Origin: Tahibacter aquaticus
Lineage (GTDB): Bacteria > Pseudomonadota > Gammaproteobacteria > Xanthomonadales > Rhodanobacteraceae
DNA length: 64,000 nt
Direction of reading: 5' to 3'
Assembly (NCBI RefSeq): GCF_004363655.1
Contig: NZ_SNZH01000001.1
Coordinates: 644,451 to 708,450, forward strand
Shown one piece after another: positions 5,656 to 44,565 of the stretch. The position numbers were made by a program, and so were the translations under genes. Under the pieces are notes generated by a model that worked only from the letters and a program-made list of their open reading frames with translations, was not told where the DNA came from and made no database searches. The stretch's first letter is position 1. Each line of letters opens with the position of its first letter.

Positions 5656-7710
5656 TTACTGGAAACCGTTGGCGAAGATCACGTCCACGACGGTCGGGCA
5701 TTGCACGTTGTCGATCACGCAGCGCGCCCATTCCGGGTGGTCGATGAACGGGTTGCGGTTGCCCTGGAACGAGAACACGGCGTCGTTGCGCAGCACTTCG
5801 CGCGCGGTCGGCGGATCCTGGTCGTTCCAGTCCAGCAGTACCGACTTCAGGCCCATGTAGCCGATGCAGTTGGTGCAGGTGGTCGCGTCCTTGCCGACGA
5901 TCAGGGCGCGGTCGTCGGTCACTTCCAGGCGCGGCTCGCGCACGCCGCTGGCACCGGTACCGCCCTGGTAGCGCACCACCATGTAGAGCACGGCTCGGGC
6001 CATGTCGCCCTTGCGGAAATCCCATACCTGGAAGGTGCTGGCGTTGAAGAAGTTGCTGTTGCCCGTGCCGCTGCCGCCGACGCCGTGGTTGAGCGTGGTC
6101 GGACGCGCCGTGCAGCCGTTGCACAGACCGTAGGGGCTGTTGCCGCGGTCCGAGTTGTAGCCAACGTGCGAGGCATGCAGCATGTGGCCGTCGGTATGCG
6201 GCGGGTTGGGCCGGCCGCTGGAATCGGTCGGATTGGGGAAGCCGAGCGACTTGGGCCAGGTGTGCTCGCGGTTGTAGTTGGCCGCGCCGCTGGTCTGCTT
6301 CGGATAGGTTTCGTTCTTGTAGACGTCCCACACCTTGGTCGTATCGTCCGGATCTTCGTCGGCCTTGTTCATCACGGTATAGGTGTCGCCGTAGAAGAGC
6401 GACACGTGGTCCTTGATGCGGTTGTGCAGCCAGGCTTTCAGCGCCGGGCCGCTGGAGGTATCCACGCCGGCGTAGTAGTCGGCGGTGGAGGCCGCGGTCT
6501 GGAACACGATGACCACGTTCTGGGTCATGTCGTTGACGCTGCCGTCCTGGTCGTGCACCTTGCTGGCGAGCACGGTCAGCGTACATTGTTCCAGAATACC
6601 CAAGTCCACATCGGGATTGACCTGGAAAGCGCTGGGGCCGCCGCTGTACTGGGCCGTGTGCGCGCCGGTGTTGGCGCAGCTCAGGGTGAACCAGCCGCTG
6701 TCGACGCTAACCGGCTCGGTGAAGGTGACGCTGAGGTTGGATGCGCCCGGGAAGCTGCTTGCGCCGTTAGCTGGGTTGCTCGACGCAACGCCCGGCGGCA
6801 GGTCGCCGGCGGTGCTGAAGCTCATGCTGTAGTCGGCGGCCATCGCATCGACAGTGCCGTCCTGGTCGGTGACTTCCTCGGCAACCACGGTCAGCGTGCA
6901 CACTTCGCCGCTGGCGAAATCCGTATCCGGATTCAGCGTGCGCGTAGTACCGCTACCGGTGGTGACGGCTGAGTGGACGCCGCTGGTGCCGCAGCTCAGG
7001 GTGAACCACGAGGCCGTGGTATCGACCGCTTCGCTGAAGGTCACCGTGATGTCGACGTTGTTGGCCTGGCCAGTGGCTGCATTGGCCGGCGTGGTCGACA
7101 CCACCGTCGGCGCCACGTCCACGGCCGGGCCGAAACTCTGGTTGTTGTTGCAGGCGCCGAAGGTCTGCGTGGCGCTGCCCTGCCAGGCGAACTGGCCGTA
7201 GTCGCTGCCGCTGCCGCTGAGCTGCAGCGAAGTGCCCGGCGCAGTGCTGTTGGTTTCGCTCACGCCGATGTCGACGCTGCTCAGGCCCTGGGCCGGGCCG
7301 TCGGCGGCGGTGACCGCGCCTTCGTAGCTGAGGAACTGCACCACGGTACCGGCGCTGTCGACCAGGGCCATGCCGTCGTTGGCGCCATTCTGCACACCGT
7401 TGGAGGGATAGGTCAGCACCTTGATCTGCTTGCTGCCGCAGGTCGAGGAAGTGGCTTCGGACAGCAGGCGATTGGAATACATCGTGCCCGCGCTGGCAGT
7501 GCTGCCGTTGTACAGCACGACACGCCAGTTGCTCAGATCGGTGCCGACGGGCGCGACGACTTCGATGGCTTCGCCGACGTCGCCGGCGCTGGTGCTGTCG
7601 TCGTAATGCAATTCATTGATGAAAACGGCGGTATCGGCCATGGCTGCGGAAGCGGCGACGGACAGCAACGCGAACACGGCGCTGGATAGCGCGCGGGAGC
7701 GGAACGACAT
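5656..7710 (-). CDS. Secreted endonuclease I family protein with lamin-tail and Ig-like domains
   Basis: A 684-residue exported nuclease. The ATG at 7708-7710 was chosen because it gives a clean signal peptide (MSFRSRALSSAVFALLSVAA, cleavage after AMA) and has a GGGG-type ribosome-binding site; the open frame continues upstream without sense. The mature part begins with a lamin-tail-domain-like segment (INELHYDDSTSAGDVGEAIE). Two tandem Big_5/SbsA-type Ig repeats of about 100 residues follow (each with NPAN..., CTLTV, DQDG). The last 230 residues are an endonuclease I domain with the His-Me finger motif YNREHTWPKS and the Asp/His segment DGHMLHASHVG. It ends exactly in VDVIFANGFQ, the terminal motif shared with other exported proteins in this window. 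It probably degrades extracellular nucleic acid. Confidence 0.9.
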   Translation of the reverse strand: MSFRSRALSSAVFALLSVAASAAMADTAVFINELHYDDSTSAGDVGEAIEVVAPVGTDLSNWRVVLYNGSTASAGTMYSNRLLSEATSSTCGSKQIKVLTYPSNGVQNGANDGMALVDSAGTVVQFLSYEGAVTAADGPAQGLSSVDIGVSETNSTAPGTSLQLSGSGSDYGQFAWQGSATQTFGACNNNQSFGPAVDVAPTVVSTTPANAATGQANNVDITVTFSEAVDTTASWFTLSCGTSGVHSAVTTGSGTTRTLNPDTDFASGEVCTLTVVAEEVTDQDGTVDAMAADYSMSFSTAGDLPPGVASSNPANGASSFPGASNLSVTFTEPVSVDSGWFTLSCANTGAHTAQYSGGPSAFQVNPDVDLGILEQCTLTVLASKVHDQDGSVNDMTQNVVIVFQTAASTADYYAGVDTSSGPALKAWLHNRIKDHVSLFYGDTYTVMNKADEDPDDTTKVWDVYKNETYPKQTSGAANYNREHTWPKSLGFPNPTDSSGRPNPPHTDGHMLHASHVGYNSDRGNSPYGLCNGCTARPTTLNHGVGGSGTGNSNFFNASTFQVWDFRKGDMARAVLYMVVRYQGGTGASGVREPRLEVTDDRALIVGKDATTCTNCIGYMGLKSVLLDWNDQDPPTAREVLRNDAVFSFQGNRNPFIDHPEWARCVIDNVQCPTVVDVIFANGFQ

Positions 7711-36427: not shown

Positions 36428-37552
36428 ATGCACCTGCGCATCGCCCTGCCTCTGCTGCTCGCCCTTGCCGGCCCTGCCGCCGCCGACGACACCGTGTTCG
36501 CCGGCGGCTTCCAGCGGGCCTGGGTAGCCGGCTACCACGTCGGCTATCAGCGCGACCTGTATCCGAATGCAGAAATCGATTTTTCTACCATTACCCACCT
36601 GATGGTCGGCCGCCTCACACCGAACGCGAACGGCACGGTGAATACGCATTTCGACATCGATGCAAGCAACGGCCCGATCTGGGCCCGCGCTGCGGCGACG
36701 GCAGCGCATGCGGGCGGCGCCAAGGCGATACTCATGGTCGGCGGTGCGGGCGAATACCAGGGCTGGGTCGGCGCGGCGGCACCCGCCAACCGGCAGACCT
36801 TCGTCAGCAACCTGCTCGCCGCGATGGACGACCTCGGCTACGACGGCCTGGATCTCGACTGGGAGCCGATCCAGACCAGCGACCAGCCCAACTTCATCGC
36901 CCTGGCCCAGGCTTTGCGCACGCAGCGGCCGGGCATGCTGCTGACCGTGCCGGTGGGCTGGGTCAACGCCAATTTCAGCGCGACGCCCGATCCGTTCTTC
37001 GCCAGCATCGCGCCGCTGTTCGACCAGATCAACGTGATGACCTACGACATGGCCGGCGCCTGGGAAGGCTGGCAAAGCTGGCACAGCTCGGCCCTGGCCG
37101 GCAACGGCGGCAACACGCCCAGCTCGGTCGAATCCAGTGCCGAGTTCTACCGGCGCTCCGGCGTGCCGCGCGCGCGCCTGGGCATAGGCATTCCGTTCTA
37201 CGGCACCTGCTGGCGCAACGTGAACGGCCCGCGCCTGTTCGGCGGCACCGTCGTGGCCAGCGACAACCTGCTCAGCTACCGCAACATCATGACCAGCTAC
37301 TACAGCGCCGGCGTGCGCCAATGGGACGCCGCCGCGTCGATGGGCTACCTGGGCTCCAGCGCGCCGATAGGCCCGCAGCAGTGCAATTTCCTTTCCTACG
37401 ACGACGAGCAGTCCATCGCCGCCAAGGGCGCCTGGCTGCGCCGCAACGGGCTGGGCGGCACCATCATCTGGACCATAGGCCAGGGGCATATTCCTACCCT
37501 GCCTGCCGGCCAGCGCGATCCTCTGCTGCAGGCGATCAAGGCGGCGTTCTAG
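36428..37552 (+). CDS. Secreted GH18 glycoside hydrolase (chitinase-like) with N-terminal VFAGGFQ motif
   Basis: A 374-residue exported glycosidase. The signal peptide (residues 1-19) ends in PAAA. The mature protein begins DDTVFAGGFQ, a close copy of the C-terminal motif of other exported proteins here. The GH18 domain follows, with the catalytic DxxDxDxE as D139-G-L-D142-L-D144-W-E146, the upstream LMVGGAGEY strand and the downstream INVMTYDMAGAWEG. All catalytic residues are intact, so hydrolysis of chitin or related beta-1,4-GlcNAc polymers is likely. It is convergent with the beta-propeller gene. Confidence 0.9.
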   Translation: MHLRIALPLLLALAGPAAADDTVFAGGFQRAWVAGYHVGYQRDLYPNAEIDFSTITHLMVGRLTPNANGTVNTHFDIDASNGPIWARAAATAAHAGGAKAILMVGGAGEYQGWVGAAAPANRQTFVSNLLAAMDDLGYDGLDLDWEPIQTSDQPNFIALAQALRTQRPGMLLTVPVGWVNANFSATPDPFFASIAPLFDQINVMTYDMAGAWEGWQSWHSSALAGNGGNTPSSVESSAEFYRRSGVPRARLGIGIPFYGTCWRNVNGPRLFGGTVVASDNLLSYRNIMTSYYSAGVRQWDAAASMGYLGSSAPIGPQQCNFLSYDDEQSIAAKGAWLRRNGLGGTIIWTIGQGHIPTLPAGQRDPLLQAIKAAF

Positions 37553-37615
37553 GCGGCGTGGCGCATAGCCCGCGATTTGCCCGGCACCCTCGCAACATTA
37601 CGTAATTATCCACAA

Positions 37616-37645
37616 TGCCAAGGCGGCCTTGCCGCCGCCTTGGCA
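37616..37645. terminator. Bidirectional hairpin between GH18 and beta-propeller genes
   Basis: A perfect 12-base-pair stem TGCCAAGGCGGC / GCCGCCTTGGCA with loop CTTGCC, between two convergent stop codons. No U-run. A perfect TTATCCACA lies just before it at 37606-37614. Confidence 0.6.
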
Positions 37646-37659
37646 CTCGCCGCGCTGCG

Positions 37660-40464
37660 CTACTGGAACCCGTCGGCGAACAACGTGTCCACCCACAGCG
37701 ACAACGCCGTGTTGTTGTTGCTGTCGCTTTCCAGCAGGCTTTCCGGCCCGAACACGACGCCACGCAACTGCGCCGCAGCCGCCTCGGGCCAGGCCGATGC
37801 GCGCACGCGCCCGCTGAGCTGCAACTGCGCCCCGGGCGCGGCGTCGAAGCGCAGCACCCATTGGCCGTAGCGCGTATCAAGGCTGCAGTTGCTGATGCCG
37901 CTGCCGCTGCAGGCCAGGTACGAGTGCGTGCCGTGCCAGGGCGAATCCACGATCAGGCTTGCGCCGGCAATCGCGGTATCGCCGCTGTAGTCCACACGCA
38001 CGTCCACATCCAGCAGCGCACCGGCGGCGAAATTCGGCGGCAGCGGCGCGATGCTCAAGCGCAAGTCGCCACGCTGCAGGACACTGAAATCGCGCAACGC
38101 ATCGCGTCGTGTCGCTACCTGCGGCGCACGCAGGGCTACGCCGCCGGCCAGGATCTTGCCCTGATACAGCGTGAAATCGCTGTCCCAGGCGGTGGTGGGA
38201 AACAGCGCATGCGCGCCTTTGACGCTGTAAAACTGCGCACCCAGCGAGTGGCCGCTGGCCAGATCGAAACGTTCGAGGAAAACGACAGACAACGGTCCGT
38301 TGTGCCGATTGCGCAACATCCAGACCGCCGTGGCCGAATCGTCCAGGCGCAAGCGACTTGCGGAGTCCAGCCATCCCGGCTGAAATGCCGGGCCATTCCA
38401 CTCATAACGCAGACCACTGCCGTCGGCCTTGACGCGCAACAGGCGCGCCGACGTCGATTCATTCCCACCATTGCCGTTGAAAATCACGGCTGTGAGCGCC
38501 ACCAATACATCGCCGTCGGCCAGCGGTACCAGGTCGGCGGCATGCAGATAGCCTGGCATCTGCTGATAAACGAACTGCCAGACCACCTCGCCGTTCGCCG
38601 CATCGCGCTTGGTCAGCGTCAGGCCTGGGCCCGAAAGTTCGTTGCCGATGGAAAACACCGCATCTCGCGCCGGCGACACTGCCAGTTCGGTTGTGCGCTC
38701 GCTCGTCGCGCCGGACCAGCGCGCTACGCCAGTCGCTGCATCGATGCGCTGCGGCGGAATTTGCAGCGCATCGTAAGGACCGTATTCGGCTACGACCAGA
38801 TCGTCCTGCAACGCGGCGACCGTAAGATACTCCGGCGTCCAGGCTTCATCGGACTGGGCCAAGGTACGCCGCCACGCCTCGCTGCCGTCTGTGGCATCCA
38901 GACGCCAGACTTCGTGCTGCACGGTATTCATGCCGTTCCTCTCCGACAGGCCGAGCAAATCGCCGCCAGCCGTACCGAAGATGCGCGAGGCAGTGCCGTA
39001 GCTGTCTCCGACGGGCACAGCGTGTGTCCACTGCTCGGTGCCGCTGCTCCTGTCGAGGCTGCGCACCCGGGATGCATTCTGGTTGCTCTCCGCCAGGGCA
39101 AGACTTGCCGGCGTGGCGACGAGATCGCCCAGCAAAAAACCCGTTGCGTTGTTCTCCCACAGTATATTTCCCCCATCAGCCGACAGACGGCGAACCCGCG
39201 TATCGCGCAGGTATGTCGCGCTTGCGACGAATACATCGCCGCCGTCGCTCAGCTGCTGTCCGCCGCTTACGGCGCGCGTGACCTTGGGCAGCGCGCTGGA
39301 AGACAGCAGGCTGCCGTTACTGAGCAGGTACCTGTTCAGACGGAAGCCATCGGCAATCGCATCGTCGGCAATCGCCACAGCGCTGCCGACGGCGCTGCCC
39401 AGCAACAGCGGCCGGTAGGCCATCTCGGCTGGATACGGCGCCTGCCAGCGCTTCTCGCCGCTGGCGCCGGACCAGCGCTGCCACTCGGCGCCGACCATGT
39501 AGTAAAGATCGCTTTCGTCGCTGCCGAGCATGCGGCCGTCGCTGGCATAGCGCCTCCACATCGTCTCGCCCGTGTCCGCGCGCAATCGCGCAAATGACGA
39601 GGAATCGCTGCGACAGACCGGATCGCCGTGCACAAAGAACACCTCGCCATTCAGGCAGGACTGGCGCCACAACAGTTCGCCGTCGGCAGCACGGAAAACC
39701 CATAGCGCTTGCCAGTCGCTCACATAGACCTTGCCGCCGCGATAGTGCAGCGCCGTCTCTTCGAGAAACGCATGACTGACGCTCCAGACCACGTTGCCCG
39801 CCGAATCCAGGCGTTTGAGCACACCGGGACTGAGCAGGCCGGCACCGCGATGCGACACATACGTTTCGCTGTCGCTACCTGCCGCAATGGCGACCTCCGG
39901 ATACGACAGGTCGCTGTTGCAAATCACCGCCTGCGTGCTCAATGCGCGCTGCCAGTAAACCGTACCGCTGCCCTCGTCCAATGCACTGACATAAGGTCTG
40001 CGATCCGCGCAGCCGATCACCACCACGGTGGCGCCAGCGGAAACTGCCCGATCGGCCGGTACGCTCACATTCCAGACCGGCCTGCCGTCCGAAGCCAACT
40101 GCGCAACCTGACTGCGCGCGCTGGTGCGGTAGAGCAGGGTTGCCCCTCCTTGCGCAGAAGCCATCACGTCACGTACTACGGCCCAGTCCGGCGTCGACAG
40201 CGAGGTGCGCCAACGCAGGCTGCCGTCCTCACGCAGGCGCGTGGCCGACAAATTGTCGGGTTGTGGCAGGAACATCACCGTCTCGCCCGTGTCGGTCGCG
40301 CGCATCGAATCCCAGGCGATATAGCCGCTCCGGTCGAAAATGCCACCGTGGTAATCCCAATCGCGCTGCCAGGGCGTAGCCGCCGTCGCCTGCAGCGGCA
40401 GCCAGGCTGCCAGGCCGATGGCGATACACCCGCCTATGCCAGTAATCCGCATGAGTTGTCGCAT
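37660..40464 (-). CDS. Large secreted PQQ-type beta-propeller protein with C-terminal FADGFQ motif
   Basis: A 934-residue exported protein. A signal peptide (residues 1-29, ending ATAATPW) is followed by about 750 residues of PQQ/WD40-like blades with recurring Gly-rich turns and Trp-containing strands, as in BamB-type propellers (for example GTVYWQRALS, GEVVWQFVYQQ, GVARWSGA). The last 130 residues form a separate beta-sandwich module with two conserved cysteines (LACSGSGISNCSLDTRYGQ) and RFDAAPGAQLQLSGRV. The protein ends in VDTLFADGFQ. The C-terminal module recurs as a remnant at 43965-44321. No catalytic function is evident; binding or surface display is likely. Confidence 0.82.
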   Translation of the reverse strand: MRQLMRITGIGGCIAIGLAAWLPLQATAATPWQRDWDYHGGIFDRSGYIAWDSMRATDTGETVMFLPQPDNLSATRLREDGSLRWRTSLSTPDWAVVRDVMASAQGGATLLYRTSARSQVAQLASDGRPVWNVSVPADRAVSAGATVVVIGCADRRPYVSALDEGSGTVYWQRALSTQAVICNSDLSYPEVAIAAGSDSETYVSHRGAGLLSPGVLKRLDSAGNVVWSVSHAFLEETALHYRGGKVYVSDWQALWVFRAADGELLWRQSCLNGEVFFVHGDPVCRSDSSSFARLRADTGETMWRRYASDGRMLGSDESDLYYMVGAEWQRWSGASGEKRWQAPYPAEMAYRPLLLGSAVGSAVAIADDAIADGFRLNRYLLSNGSLLSSSALPKVTRAVSGGQQLSDGGDVFVASATYLRDTRVRRLSADGGNILWENNATGFLLGDLVATPASLALAESNQNASRVRSLDRSSGTEQWTHAVPVGDSYGTASRIFGTAGGDLLGLSERNGMNTVQHEVWRLDATDGSEAWRRTLAQSDEAWTPEYLTVAALQDDLVVAEYGPYDALQIPPQRIDAATGVARWSGATSERTTELAVSPARDAVFSIGNELSGPGLTLTKRDAANGEVVWQFVYQQMPGYLHAADLVPLADGDVLVALTAVIFNGNGGNESTSARLLRVKADGSGLRYEWNGPAFQPGWLDSASRLRLDDSATAVWMLRNRHNGPLSVVFLERFDLASGHSLGAQFYSVKGAHALFPTTAWDSDFTLYQGKILAGGVALRAPQVATRRDALRDFSVLQRGDLRLSIAPLPPNFAAGALLDVDVRVDYSGDTAIAGASLIVDSPWHGTHSYLACSGSGISNCSLDTRYGQWVLRFDAAPGAQLQLSGRVRASAWPEAAAAQLRGVVFGPESLLESDSNNNTALSLWVDTLFADGFQ

Positions 40465-40712
40465 GTCTTTCTCTCCACTGGGGCCAATGTCAGATCCCGA
40501 GAAATCGTTCGATCCAGTCGGTCATCCGCAATCCGGCGCCCCCGATGATCAACACTGTCGACGGGTGATCCGATAGGCACGCGGGCCCGGGTTTGATCTT
40601 CGTTTCACAGCCGCACGTCAGGCTGAAACTCCCTGCCGAACGAGTCGCCCGGATTTGGCCGATGCCAGGACGATGGCTGGCAAGCCACGCCCGCTTGGCC
40701 GAAGCTAGGCCA

Positions 40713-41411
40713 ATGAATCGCCCCATGCTCCAGCGCCTGCACATCCTGGTGATCGAGGACAACCTCGCCCTGCGCAGCAGCCTCGCCGGCCTGCTGCAGG
40801 CCCATGGGCACCGGGCAGACTTCGCCGCCGACGGCCGCAGCGGCTTGGCCCTGGCGCTGGCCGAGCCACCGGATGTGCTGGTACTGGATCTGAACCTGCC
40901 GGGCCTGGACGGCCTCAGCGTGTGCCGCCGCCTGCGTGAGCAGTCGGACCGGCACGTACCGGTGCTGATGCTGACCGCACGCGACAGCCTGCACGACAAG
41001 CTACAAGGCTTCGACGCCGGTGCCGACGACTATCTGGTCAAACCCTTCGCCGGCGAGGAATTGCTGGCGCGCTGCCTGGCCCTGTCGCAGCGCCATCGTG
41101 CCGGCACCGGGCACCTGCTGCGCATCGGTTCGCTCTGCCTGGACCGGCGCAGCGGCGAAGCGCAGCGTCACGGCCGTCGCCTCGAATTGCTGCAGATGCC
41201 GCGGCGCATCCTGCAGGAGCTGGCCGAAGCCTGGCCACGCACGCTCAGCCGCAGCGAACTGATGCAGCGCCTCTGGGGCGACGACCCGCCGCAGTCCGAT
41301 CCCCTTCGCTCACATCTGTATTTATTGCGCCAGGAACTGGACAAGCCGTTCCCCGTAGCCATGCTCAAGACCGTACACGGCGTCGGCTTCAAGCTGGTCA
41401 GCGACGAATGA
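40713..41411 (+). CDS. Two-component response regulator (OmpR/PhoB type)
   Basis: A 232-residue regulator. The receiver domain (residues 8-120) carries the acidic pair in VIED, phospho-acceptor D59 in VLVLDLNLPG, the Thr in LMLTARD and the Lys in DYLVKPF. The C-terminal winged helix is shortened but clear (RRILQELAEAWPRTLSRSEL, RSHLYLLRQELDKPF, VHGVGFKLV). The ATG at 40713 starts just before the first beta-strand. It overlaps the kinase gene by four bases (ATGA), so both are translated together. The target genes are unknown; the neighbouring exported-protein genes are candidates. Confidence 0.93.
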   Translation: MNRPMLQRLHILVIEDNLALRSSLAGLLQAHGHRADFAADGRSGLALALAEPPDVLVLDLNLPGLDGLSVCRRLREQSDRHVPVLMLTARDSLHDKLQGFDAGADDYLVKPFAGEELLARCLALSQRHRAGTGHLLRIGSLCLDRRSGEAQRHGRRLELLQMPRRILQELAEAWPRTLSRSELMQRLWGDDPPQSDPLRSHLYLLRQELDKPFPVAMLKTVHGVGFKLVSDE

Positions 41412-42715
41412 ATCGCACCGACACCGCGCGGCCGCGGCTGCGCCGCCGCCTGATGCTGGCCTTTGCCGCATTCACTGCGCTCACCACCGGTGTCTTCGGC
41501 CTCTACGCGATGACCTTCATGTACGTGGCCGAAGACGCCTTCTTCGCCACCACGCTGCAACAGGAAGCCGACCGGCTGCACCGGATGCAGGCGCGCGACG
41601 GCCGCTGGCCTGCGCCGCAAGCGCCCTTCATGCAGGTGTATACCGATGCGGCCGCGCTGCCCGACGGCATCGGCGCGGTACTCGCACAGCAACCGCAGCG
41701 GCGCGAATTCGCCGCACCGCAAGGTCGCCACTATCACCTGTTGCCACTGGCCGCAGCCGACGGCGCACCGGCCTGGCTGCTGGCCGAGGTCAGCGCGCAA
41801 TTGGTGGTGCGACCGATGCGTGTGCGCCTGCTGGTGCTGCTCGCCGCCTCCACTGCAACGCTGCTGCTGATCGGACTGGTGCTGGGCTGGTGGCTGGCAC
41901 GGCGCACGACCGCGCCGTTGACGCGGCTGGTCGCGCTGGTGGAGAACACCGCCGTGGATCGCCTGCCGCGCGATCTGGCGCGGGGGTTTGCCGACGACGA
42001 TGTCGGCGTGCTGGCGCGTGCGCTGGATGCACTGGCCGAACGCATGCATGCCTTCGTGCTGCGCGAACGCGAATTCACCCGCGACGCCAGTCACGAACTG
42101 CGCACGCCGCTCACGGTGATCCGCGCCGCGGCAGAACGGCTGCAGAGCGAAGCCCGGCTGTCGCCGGCGGGCCGGCAGCAACTGAGCCATCTGCACCAGT
42201 CGGCCCTGCAGCTGCAACAGACCGTGATCGCCCTGCTCACGCTGGCGCGCGAAGAAGATGTCGCGGCGTTCGCGCCGACGGCTGCACAGGTTGCCGTGCT
42301 GCCGCTGCTGGAACAGGTGGTGATCGAACAGGCGCCCTTGCTGGACGGCAAGCCGGTCGAGGTGGATGTACAGCTGGCGCGCGACACCTGCAGCAGTGTG
42401 CCGGCGGCACTGCTGCATATCCTGCTGTCGAACCTCGTCGGCAACGCCTTCGCCCATGCCACCGCCGGCACGATCGACATCGGCGCAAGCGACGGCCGCC
42501 TGCGCATCGCCAATCGTATCGATGACACGGACCAGGCAACTTTGCCGCATTTGCAGCAGGCCTATGCCAAACGCGAAGGCAGCGCCGGTTTCGGCCTGGG
42601 CCTGGTCATCGTGCGCCGCCTCAGCGATCGCTGCGGACTGGACCTGCGCATCGACTGGACCGGGGCGCACGCGGTGGCGAGCTTTCTGCTGCAGCCGGCG
42701 CGGTCGCAGGCCTGA
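41408..42715 (+). CDS. Sensor histidine kinase
   Basis: A 435-residue inner-membrane kinase paired with the preceding regulator. Transmembrane helices at about 15-40 and 140-162 flank a 100-residue periplasmic sensor. A HAMP linker (LARRTTAPLTRLVALVENTA) follows. The HisKA domain has H229 in RDASHELRTPLT. The ATPase domain has a short N-box (NLVGNAFAHA) and G-box GFGLGLVIVRR. It is like the HisKA kinases of QseC/PhoR type. The signal is unknown. Confidence 0.92.
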   Translation: MNRTDTARPRLRRRLMLAFAAFTALTTGVFGLYAMTFMYVAEDAFFATTLQQEADRLHRMQARDGRWPAPQAPFMQVYTDAAALPDGIGAVLAQQPQRREFAAPQGRHYHLLPLAAADGAPAWLLAEVSAQLVVRPMRVRLLVLLAASTATLLLIGLVLGWWLARRTTAPLTRLVALVENTAVDRLPRDLARGFADDDVGVLARALDALAERMHAFVLREREFTRDASHELRTPLTVIRAAAERLQSEARLSPAGRQQLSHLHQSALQLQQTVIALLTLAREEDVAAFAPTAAQVAVLPLLEQVVIEQAPLLDGKPVEVDVQLARDTCSSVPAALLHILLSNLVGNAFAHATAGTIDIGASDGRLRIANRIDDTDQATLPHLQQAYAKREGSAGFGLGLVIVRRLSDRCGLDLRIDWTGAHAVASFLLQPARSQA

Positions 42716-42760
42716 ACCGTTCGGCGCTGCCCTGCCCTGTCGGCTGCGGGCGAGCGCGCA

Positions 42761-43861
42761 TCAGCGCCAATCCGCATCGTCGGGCCGCGACAGGGCCGCA
42801 TCGGCGTCGTCCGCCAGCAGCGCCTGGGCACGCTGCTGCGACTGTGCCGCAGCCCTGGCCGCGACCTCGGGCCAGCTCGCCGGCAACGGCTGCCACGGCC
42901 CGGGGCCCAGCACTTCCGCAACAAGGTCGCCCGCTTCCAGACCGTAGGCGTCGCGCAATGCCGCGTAGCCGCCGTCCGCTCTTTCCGCCTGGCGCAGCAG
43001 TTCGGCATAACGCGGATAGTTGTCGACGCTGAGCAGCCGCGTCAGGCGTTCGGCCAGGTCGTAGGACAGCAGGTTGCCGTCGTCGGGGCGGCCGAAGGAA
43101 TGGCCGGTCCAGAATTCCTGCAGGGTCTGCCCGTTCCAGAACGCCGCATGCTTTTCGGCCATCTCGCGCGGCGAATACAGGTTGCGCCGCGGGTCGGCCA
43201 GATGCGGTACAAGATACTTTTCCATATTGACGGCGGCGCCCTCGTCCAGCCAGCGCGGAAGGTCCAGATGCGCCAGCAGCGCATGGGTATGCTCGTGCAC
43301 GAGGACCGGTTCCATCTCGGCGACGTTTTCGGCCTCGAACACGAAATGGCCGTAGCCCGCATCGACGAACATGCCCGAGGACATGGCGAACACGCCTTCG
43401 CTCGGGTAGTAATGGTCGATATAGGCGTAGTACTCGTCCGGGTTGTCGAACAGCAGCACAGCCTCGGGACCGTAGCCGCTGCTGCCGGCGACACCCGGCA
43501 GCGCCTGCAGGATGCGCCGGTGCACGCGTTCGGCGAAATCCAGCGTGACCGTGCATTCGCGCAACGACAGCGGCGCGAGCAGCGCGAAATGTTCCGAATG
43601 GCTGACGCGGTAGTCGTCCTCGCCCAGCGCCTGCGCCAGCCGGCGCAGCCAGGCGTCGACCGCGCTGCGCCAGAACGCGTGCAAGGCAGCGGCGTCGCCT
43701 GGCGGCGGCGCCAGTTGCGCCACGGCTTCCCAGTCGGGAATCGGCAGCCGGGTCCCGGCCGCCCAGCAGTCCTCGGGCAAGTCCAGTGCAACGGGCGGAC
43801 TGGCCGGTACCGACGCAGCAGCCGCTTTACGGCCCAACAGTGACCTGATCAGTCCGATCAC
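42761..43861 (-). CDS. Gluzincin-like protein with HEHTH motif, function unknown
   Basis: A 366-residue protein. The GTG at 43859-43861 was chosen because it follows GGAGG at eight bases; an earlier in-frame GTG (43876) lacks a site. The N-terminus is basic and hydrophobic (MIGLIRSLLGRK) but not a clear signal peptide. Around residues 185-215 it shows VLVHEHTHALLAHLDLPRWL followed by DEG, the HExxH plus Glu pattern of Peptidase_MA-type gluzincins. The rest is helical and has no recognised domain. It may be a zinc peptidase; substrate and location are unknown. Confidence 0.75.
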   Translation of the reverse strand: MIGLIRSLLGRKAAAASVPASPPVALDLPEDCWAAGTRLPIPDWEAVAQLAPPPGDAAALHAFWRSAVDAWLRRLAQALGEDDYRVSHSEHFALLAPLSLRECTVTLDFAERVHRRILQALPGVAGSSGYGPEAVLLFDNPDEYYAYIDHYYPSEGVFAMSSGMFVDAGYGHFVFEAENVAEMEPVLVHEHTHALLAHLDLPRWLDEGAAVNMEKYLVPHLADPRRNLYSPREMAEKHAAFWNGQTLQEFWTGHSFGRPDDGNLLSYDLAERLTRLLSVDNYPRYAELLRQAERADGGYAALRDAYGLEAGDLVAEVLGPGPWQPLPASWPEVAARAAAQSQQRAQALLADDADAALSRPDDADWR

Positions 43862-43964
43862 GGCGAAAACCTCCACAAGTGTCCAACACGCGAACGGCTG
43901 CCTTGCTGCCCGCCGCGACCGACCACCTTCCGGGTCACCGCGGCCGCTGGCTTTGCACTGCGCC

Positions 43965-44321
43965 TCAGTCGAAGGCGTCGGCGAAAATCACGCCGTTGGC
44001 CGCAATACTCTGGAAATTGTTCATGAAATTACTTTCCAGCAAATGTACGGATGCTTGCACCAGTCCACGTACGATCAGCGTGTCGGCGGCCGGAGCGGCC
44101 AGCGCGCGTACGCGGCCGCTCAGGCTCAGCTGCGCACCGGGCGCGGCGTCGAAGCGCGCGACGATCTGGCCATGGCGGGTATCCAGTTCGCAGCGGCTGA
44201 TGCCCGGGCCGTCGCAGATCAGTTCGCTGTCGCTGCCCTGCCAGGGCAGATCCAGCAGCAAGGTCGCATCGACGATATCGCCGTCGCCGCTGTAGCTCAC
44301 GCCGACGGTGAACGGCAGCAT
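43965..44321 (-). pseudogene. Remnant of a beta-sandwich module ending in IFADAFD
   Basis: An open frame of 118 codons clearly homologous to the C-terminal module of the large beta-propeller (37660-40464). Shared segments include VSYSGDGDI versus VDYSGDTAI, GISRCELDTRHGQ versus GISNCSLDTRYGQ, and RFDAAPGAQLSLSGRVRA. It ends in ANGVIFADAFD, a variant of the FADGFQ motif. It has no signal peptide in frame, and a stop lies in frame at 44373-44375. In another frame an ATG at 44374-44376 begins a short MKRTQFAAWHSCLLALG, suggesting a frameshifted signal sequence. It is most likely the decayed end of a second exported protein, though a functional small protein cannot be ruled out. Confidence 0.6.
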
Positions 44322-44565
44322 GTCGTCCGAGTGCGAGCAGGCAGCTATGCCACGCCGCGAATTGCGTTCTCTTCATGCTAGCCCCTGAAAGATGGCGCGT
44401 TTCCGTCGCCCTTGCGATCTAACGCAATTCGGCGGCGCTGCTGATCACGGCCATTCATACCATCCCGCGATTATCGCCTGCAGCGACGCCTGCGCCGCTG
44501 TGTCGCTGCCGTGCGACGCGGTATCCACGGCCGCCGGCACAGGCATCGGCGATCTGCCCCGGTAC

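Follow-up and report, generated by a model that had tools for sequence, protein, structure and literature searches.

In the 64,000-nt stretch of the Tahibacter aquaticus genome analysed here (the window), exported proteins of unrelated architecture end in nearly the same short peptide, and related genomes identify this peptide as a nine-residue C-terminal tag spread over many different exported proteins. The tag looks like an export address label, and it tracks one secretion machine, the second of two type II secretion systems (T2SS) in tag-rich genomes, designated T2SS-A; it co-occurs also with exosortase H, and homologous enzymes carry either the tag or the transmembrane signal IPTL-CTERM. 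These patterns favour, by a modest measure, a portable C-terminal targeting tag recognised by T2SS-A, the likeliest reader being a periplasmic part of the machine and perhaps the PDZ domain of its GspC component. The bolder proposition, that the nine residues form a linear, portable T2SS signal that sends folded periplasmic proteins of any kind out through T2SS-A when read by the GspC PDZ domain, is advanced tentatively, as something that may be true rather than as something probable.

Extent and position of the motif

When the motif was sought in the 7.27 Mb Tahibacter genome as F-x-[DN]-[GA]-F-[QEDH] followed directly by a stop, 28 sites were found versus none for the reversed pattern, an enrichment at stops that the first-pass annotation of this DNA had set as a test. 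All 28 sites close open frames, two of them (L026 and L027) being near-identical contig ends. Without the stop, the nine-residue pattern matched 71 sites in this genome and 116 in a 3.7 Mb relative, both with reversed controls of 0, and a wider stop-free pattern, allowing G or S at the D/N place and A at the next, matched 143 sites in the Tahibacter genome versus 21 in reverse. Of the 100 places listed among these 143, 40 sites with [DN]-G and no adjoining stop were read in context; 26 of them have 1–11 residues before the stop, and 14 are internal, N-terminal or chance matches.

Conservation in 198 non-redundant tagged frames is confined to nine columns, D-x-[IL]-F-x-[DN]-G-F-[EDQ], and none was detected in the ten columns ahead of them; the motif outlined in the first-pass annotation is real, and its true extent is nine residues starting at D. 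The apparent strength of the D, I and E columns is inflated by a scan requiring those residues, which supplied 118 loci; the 28 ends from the Tahibacter genome, for which D had not been required, begin with D in 17 cases, with E in 4 and with another residue in 7. The frame stops at the motif in 158 of the 198 cases and continues for only 1–11 residues in the other 40 (1–12 are possible), in keeping with the earlier statement that no transmembrane segment or basic tail follows. Of 203 distinct motifs in the fetched DNA (the reversed motif occurred once), 196 lie within 15 residues of a stop, a ratio biased upward because many loci were fetched for a stop-adjacent tag; among 30 loci fetched without a stop requirement, mostly from tag-poor genomes, 18 have the motif at most 15 residues from the stop, preceded by 100 or more residues of open frame.

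Two proteins (L116 and L178) end in a tandem pair of tags. Good internal copies are seen in some longer proteins (L065, L075 and L086), as though translation had continued past the tag or another domain had been joined to it. A variant with S for G, D-x-F-x-[DN]-S-F-E, is common in one genome (G391) and is seen too in loci L410 and L412.

Carrier proteins and exchange of signals among homologs

A crude rule for signal-peptide-like starts picked out 46 of 61 complete tagged frames versus 85 of 302 neighbouring frames (49 of 174 when neighbours are restricted to those of at least 250 residues), which ties the tag to proteins with signal-peptide-like starts, an enrichment that had been proposed as a check; a looser rule, applied to tagged frames with no control set, picked out 91 of 114. 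From 107 complete tagged frames of at least 150 residues, 92 were scanned for domains, the longest being left out, and these matched 72 Pfam families, some of them overlapping, with the commonest family in 9 members. In NCBIfam, choice-of-anchor Q was matched by 17 of the 92, and families named as myxosortase-dependent or rhombosortase-dependent by 4 tagged proteins each. No NCBIfam model of the tag itself was present among the best 25 of the 63 families matched by the 92 proteins; TIGR04174 (IPTL-CTERM) was likewise absent from those 25 and had no match in the window proteins. The carriers are mostly surface-type enzymes and beta-rich proteins. Two kinds of neighbour, named by reading their sequences, turn up repeatedly beside tagged genes (at L210, L178 and other loci): a protein resembling Ser/Thr kinases at 8 loci and one resembling sigma factors at 6.

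Endonuclease I, a carrier in the window, has homologs with and without the tag. A search of 50 genomes yielded homologs in 27. In genomes lacking exosortase H, seven of nine endonuclease loci were readable, and all seven end at the domain, tagless; the 21 loci from genomes with exosortase H comprise 7 with the tag, 2 with a near-form (L389 and L390), 3 with a tagless end and 9 missed by the filter, in 3 of which alignment revealed a tail (L413, plus L410 and L412 in the S-for-G form). Endonuclease orthologs that end ahead of the tag, together with the 72 Pfam families of the carriers, bear out the earlier proposal of a tag rather than shared ancestry, and the motif is not part of one folded domain.

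Homologous enzymes also carry either the tag or the transmembrane IPTL-CTERM signal. A tagged homolog exists for 18 of 49 non-redundant IPTL-CTERM proteins, and for five of the 18, of nuclease-like and beta-helix type, the alignment reaches within 24 residues of both trimmed ends, the last 45 residues having been taken off the IPTL proteins and the motif off the tagged ones.

Distribution and association with exosortase H

Across the order, a group of soil and water bacteria, the tag is nearly all-or-none. The strict count is 3–41 in 27 of 117 genomes sampled from the family and 0–1 in the other 90; it is uneven, 0–57, in a sample of 200 genomes from the order, and in 274 genomes from the class (own genome apart) it does not exceed 4, with reversed controls of up to 5. 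Carriers among the matches listed include Tahibacter, Dokdonella, Marinicella, Pseudofulvimonas and Pseudomarimonas; a few listed carriers are named as other groups and may be mislabelled assemblies. One genome of a tag-poor family, G443, has 9 motif matches, and G032 and G111 encode exosortase H but have no tag.

Profiling for a co-occurring protease or translocon, which the first-pass annotation had recommended, brought out both exosortase H and a second T2SS. Exosortase H (TIGR04177), the presence of which was taken from lists naming every match rather than every miss, matched in 132 of the 200 order genomes (131 over the cut-off) and 31 of the 117 family genomes. With a cut of 3 tags, tag and enzyme occur together in 70 order genomes, the tag alone in 3 (77–85% complete), the enzyme alone in 62 and neither in 65; one genome counted as a carrier (G504) has only a 35-residue match below the cut-off, and without it the table reads 69/4/62/65. 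When the order sample is grouped into genera and the cut set at 5 tags, the corresponding counts are 27, 0, 20 and 22 (p = 9e-7), so that all 27 tag-rich genera encode the enzyme, and for the 117 genomes of the family sample they are 27, 0, 4 and 86; p-values for this association are too small because related genomes are not independent. An earlier search with Pfam PF09721 for exosortases gave weak and patchy matches, which TIGR04177 resolved.

Exosortase H serves IPTL-CTERM, and the profile data agree with this role: of 56 genomes, 47 have IPTL-CTERM matches over the cut-off, whether they are rich or poor in tags, and the six genomes without the enzyme reach only E values of 0.16–0.88. No dedicated partner was found beside exosortase H in 20 neighbourhoods, which consist mostly of genes that read as housekeeping (aroB, aroK, an epimerase-like gene and pdxH).

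A second type II secretion system in tag-rich genomes

T2SS-A tracks the tag better still than exosortase H does. Two GspD secretins of at least 430 bits, some split in pieces, were present in all 30 tag-rich genomes among 60 that were searched, and in the secretin tree one of each pair falls in a 34-row clade with support of 1.0, which defines T2SS-A. In these 60 genomes, selected on tag count and on whether exosortase H was present, the T2SS-A secretin occurs in 30 of 30 that are tag-rich, 4 of 10 that are tag-poor with exosortase H (9 of the 62 order-sample genomes with the enzyme and fewer than 3 tags, together with G061, which belongs to the family sample) and 0 of 20 that lack exosortase H, two of the latter (G128 and G405) being scored as T2SS-A-less for want of a full secretin. 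G405 lacks a secretin match, exosortase H and the tag, a further case of joint absence, and the second secretins of two other genomes without exosortase H (G408 and G441) form long branches that adjoin the T2SS-A clade and lie outside it.

The 4 tag-poor genomes with T2SS-A belong to one genus of family f180 and have 2–3 motif matches each, and the 6 tag-poor exosortase H genomes without it have 0–1. Exosortase H is kept, and T2SS-A and the tag are both absent, in part of genus g9 and in most of family f178. When the tree of the other secretin was used as a stand-in for the species tree, the tag, which has the same pattern as T2SS-A in its rows, changes 4 times and exosortase H twice, the deep forks of this tree being weakly supported.

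The T2SS-A locus contains gspC, gspD and gspE, followed in some genomes by gspF and an FtsEX-like pair and preceded by genes that read as rho, trxA and rhlB. A PDZ domain lies at the end of T2SS-A GspC in 4 of 4 loci scanned, and in tblastn searches this GspC matched 9 of 9 T2SS-A loci versus 0 of 11 loci of the other system, T2SS-B (one of them cut by a contig end), which looks like a long, complete operon. In the Tahibacter genome (G000:C18 51.3-56 kb, L417), about 4.7 kb with a permease-like open frame separates gspE and gspF of T2SS-A.

Proposed export route and alternatives

Under the favoured reading, tagged proteins would cross the inner membrane by their N-terminal signal peptides and fold in the periplasm, where the nine-residue tail would stay exposed; T2SS-A would then recognise the tail and carry them across the outer membrane, its reader most likely one of its periplasmic parts and perhaps the PDZ domain of GspC. 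Exosortase H and the transmembrane IPTL-CTERM may constitute a sister route by which these cells handle surface enzymes of the same kinds. It is from co-occurrence that we infer T2SS-A as exporter and reader, with the tail as what is read and the PDZ domain as the part that may read it. T2SS-A reading the tail would be the simplest account because two lineages keep exosortase H yet lack both T2SS-A and the tag.

Several observations weigh against this account. The link between T2SS-A and the tag is one of co-occurrence only, in genomes chosen as described above and including just 10 tag-poor genomes with exosortase H, and every genome with T2SS-A among the 60 typed also has exosortase H, which makes the two inseparable in that direction. 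The f180 genomes hold T2SS-A yet have few tags, tagless endonuclease homologs (L393, in which a stop lies inside the match, L409 and L411) occur in some tag-bearing genomes, and a few tags are internal. Reading of 20 kb windows revealed no pseudopilins at the T2SS-A locus. A classical PDZ ligand has a hydrophobic residue at a free C terminus; the tag, unlike such a ligand, has E, D or Q as its last residue in all 198 frames, as the search pattern required, and may be followed by the further residues noted above.

The tag could instead be a substrate signal of exosortase H that lacks the transmembrane segment, the enzyme cutting or transferring the tail on the periplasmic side of the inner membrane, with T2SS-A following the tag only because both are old in the order. 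The near-absence of the tag without the enzyme (the 3 incomplete genomes among 200, and none of the tag-rich genera) and the presence of tag or IPTL-CTERM on the same protein families speak for such a signal, which is nevertheless unlikely: both the membrane segment and the basic tail are missing, the enzyme is often tagless (62 of 132 genomes in the order sample) while IPTL-CTERM persists there, and the two lineages with the enzyme have neither tag nor T2SS-A.

Export by T2SS-A or another route without the tail being read, followed by binding of the tail to a surface or matrix receptor, is likewise improbable in our estimate. Docking or retention of this kind would suit carriers that are mainly surface-type enzymes and beta-rich proteins, and would predict tandem tags such as those of L116 and L178, but no receptor was found (an IPTL-CTERM family common to the tag-bearing genomes, sought as a candidate, did not emerge among the 49 proteins) and docking alone leaves the joint loss with T2SS-A unexplained.

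Much less probable is a readerless structural end-cap, a short beta-hairpin at the [DN]-G turn that arose by convergence in secreted beta-rich proteins. Many carriers are beta-rich and [DN]-G is a common turn; the motif is, however, nearly absent without exosortase H and in the rest of the class, orthologous endonucleases manage without the tail, and no conservation adjoins the motif, so that this reading is already unlikely. A repeated DNA element that happens to encode the peptide would account for its presence at many gene ends and is close to refuted, since the residues are constant while the codons are free to vary, and the ten preceding residues are unconserved.

Copies of the tag in the window

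All four peptides reported by the first-pass annotation were found at its positions, which are collected in Table 1 with the strands that it lacked (minus for three genes, plus for the GH18 gene). In the three C-terminal copies the protein ends exactly where the motif ends, and no further terminal copy was found in the window under the pattern used.

Table 1. Tagged genes, tags and a look-alike peptide in the 64,000-nt window
Feature	Position	Strand	Evidence or remark
Exported endonuclease I (LTD, Big_5 and Endonuclease_1 domains), tagged	5656..7710	-	Translation; Pfam Endonuclease_1 E 8.7e-35; orthologs with and without tag
Tag DVIFANGFQ, stop adjoining	5659..5685	-	Site C1:650106-650126
Exported PQQ-type beta-propeller protein with C-terminal module and tag	37660..40464	-	Translation; Pfam PQQ_2 E 1.2e-25
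Tag DTLFADGFQ, stop adjoining	37663..37689	-	Site C1:682110-682130
Remnant: C-terminal module akin to the beta-propeller protein's end, lacking an in-frame signal peptide	43965..44321	-	Translation; flanking sequence
Degenerate tag GVIFADAFD, stop adjoining	43968..43994	-	Site C1:688415-688435
VFAGGFQ behind the signal peptide of the GH18 protein (36428-37552)	36494..36514	+	Probably a chance look-alike, not a tag

The remnant at 43965-44321 has no Pfam match; the beta-propeller protein ends in the same module over the remnant's full module length, so the two are related by descent, and the tail is the sole part that endonuclease I has in common with either. This corrects the earlier reading in that the remnant and the propeller are one family. 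An apparent signal-peptide start lies just upstream of the remnant (43965-44377, minus strand), which suggests that a larger gene once stood here and is now mostly gone.

The N-terminal TVFAGGFQ of the GH18 protein, offered earlier as a fourth copy, has been dropped as a tag and is probably a chance occurrence because G replaces D/N and the pattern allowing this has 21 reversed matches; one other N-terminal look-alike (L062) was seen among the 40 contexts without a stop that were read. The claim that the motif lies at a terminus each time holds for the three C-terminal copies at stops, and is to be qualified by the loss of the GH18 copy, by the residues that may follow the motif and by the few internal copies.

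Significance and comparison with known systems

To our knowledge, T2SS substrates are held to share no common linear signal, and how these machines pick their cargo is an open question. A 2025 paper still notes the lack of a linear, universal T2SS signal (PMC12369372), and no published description of the tag was found by spelling of the motif or among the literature matches listed. A soluble tail common to unrelated proteins would, if truly read by T2SS-A, be a new answer to the problem of cargo recognition; the tag can be read in sequence, occurs dozens of times per genome and vanishes with one T2SS, and it would open the question of cargo choice to a grafting test with nine residues. For many unannotated proteins of Tahibacter, Dokdonella, Marinicella and their relatives, it would also hint at where they are located. 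Were the reader exosortase H or a surface receptor, the tag would still represent a sorting class without the usual membrane segment.

In type IX secretion, proteins exported by Sec carry a C-terminal signal for an outer-membrane machine, which is a likeness to the tag, but those C-terminal domains are folded, comprise roughly 70–80 residues and belong to Bacteroidota. Among T2SS substrates, a nine-residue loop of Dickeya PelI is described as a specific signal interacting with GspC and GspD (PMC7949064). Unlike the tag, the PelI/Pel3 loop signals of Dickeya and Pectobacterium are internal, belong to a single enzyme family and form only a portion of a composite signal.

PEP-CTERM, IPTL-CTERM and GlyGly-CTERM resemble the tag in their C-terminal position on many unrelated exported proteins, and these tripartite signals differ from it in having a membrane-spanning segment and a basic tail. 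The GlyGly-CTERM/rhombosortase/T2SS combination of Vibrio involves a C-terminal sorting signal on surface enzymes exported by a T2SS, as is proposed for the tag, although GlyGly-CTERM is a processed transmembrane helix. Only one known substrate of Vibrio cholerae fully requires the PDZ domain of the GspC homolog, the GlyGly-CTERM protein VesB, the PDZ-dependent information of which sits in an Ig fold and not in a linear tail (PMC12369372). The IPTL-CTERM (TIGR04174)/exosortase H (TIGR04177) system shares with the tag a C-terminal signal on many unrelated exported proteins, the same genomes and the same families that carry either signal, whereas IPTL-CTERM consists of a motif, a membrane segment and a basic tail and the tag of nine soluble residues.

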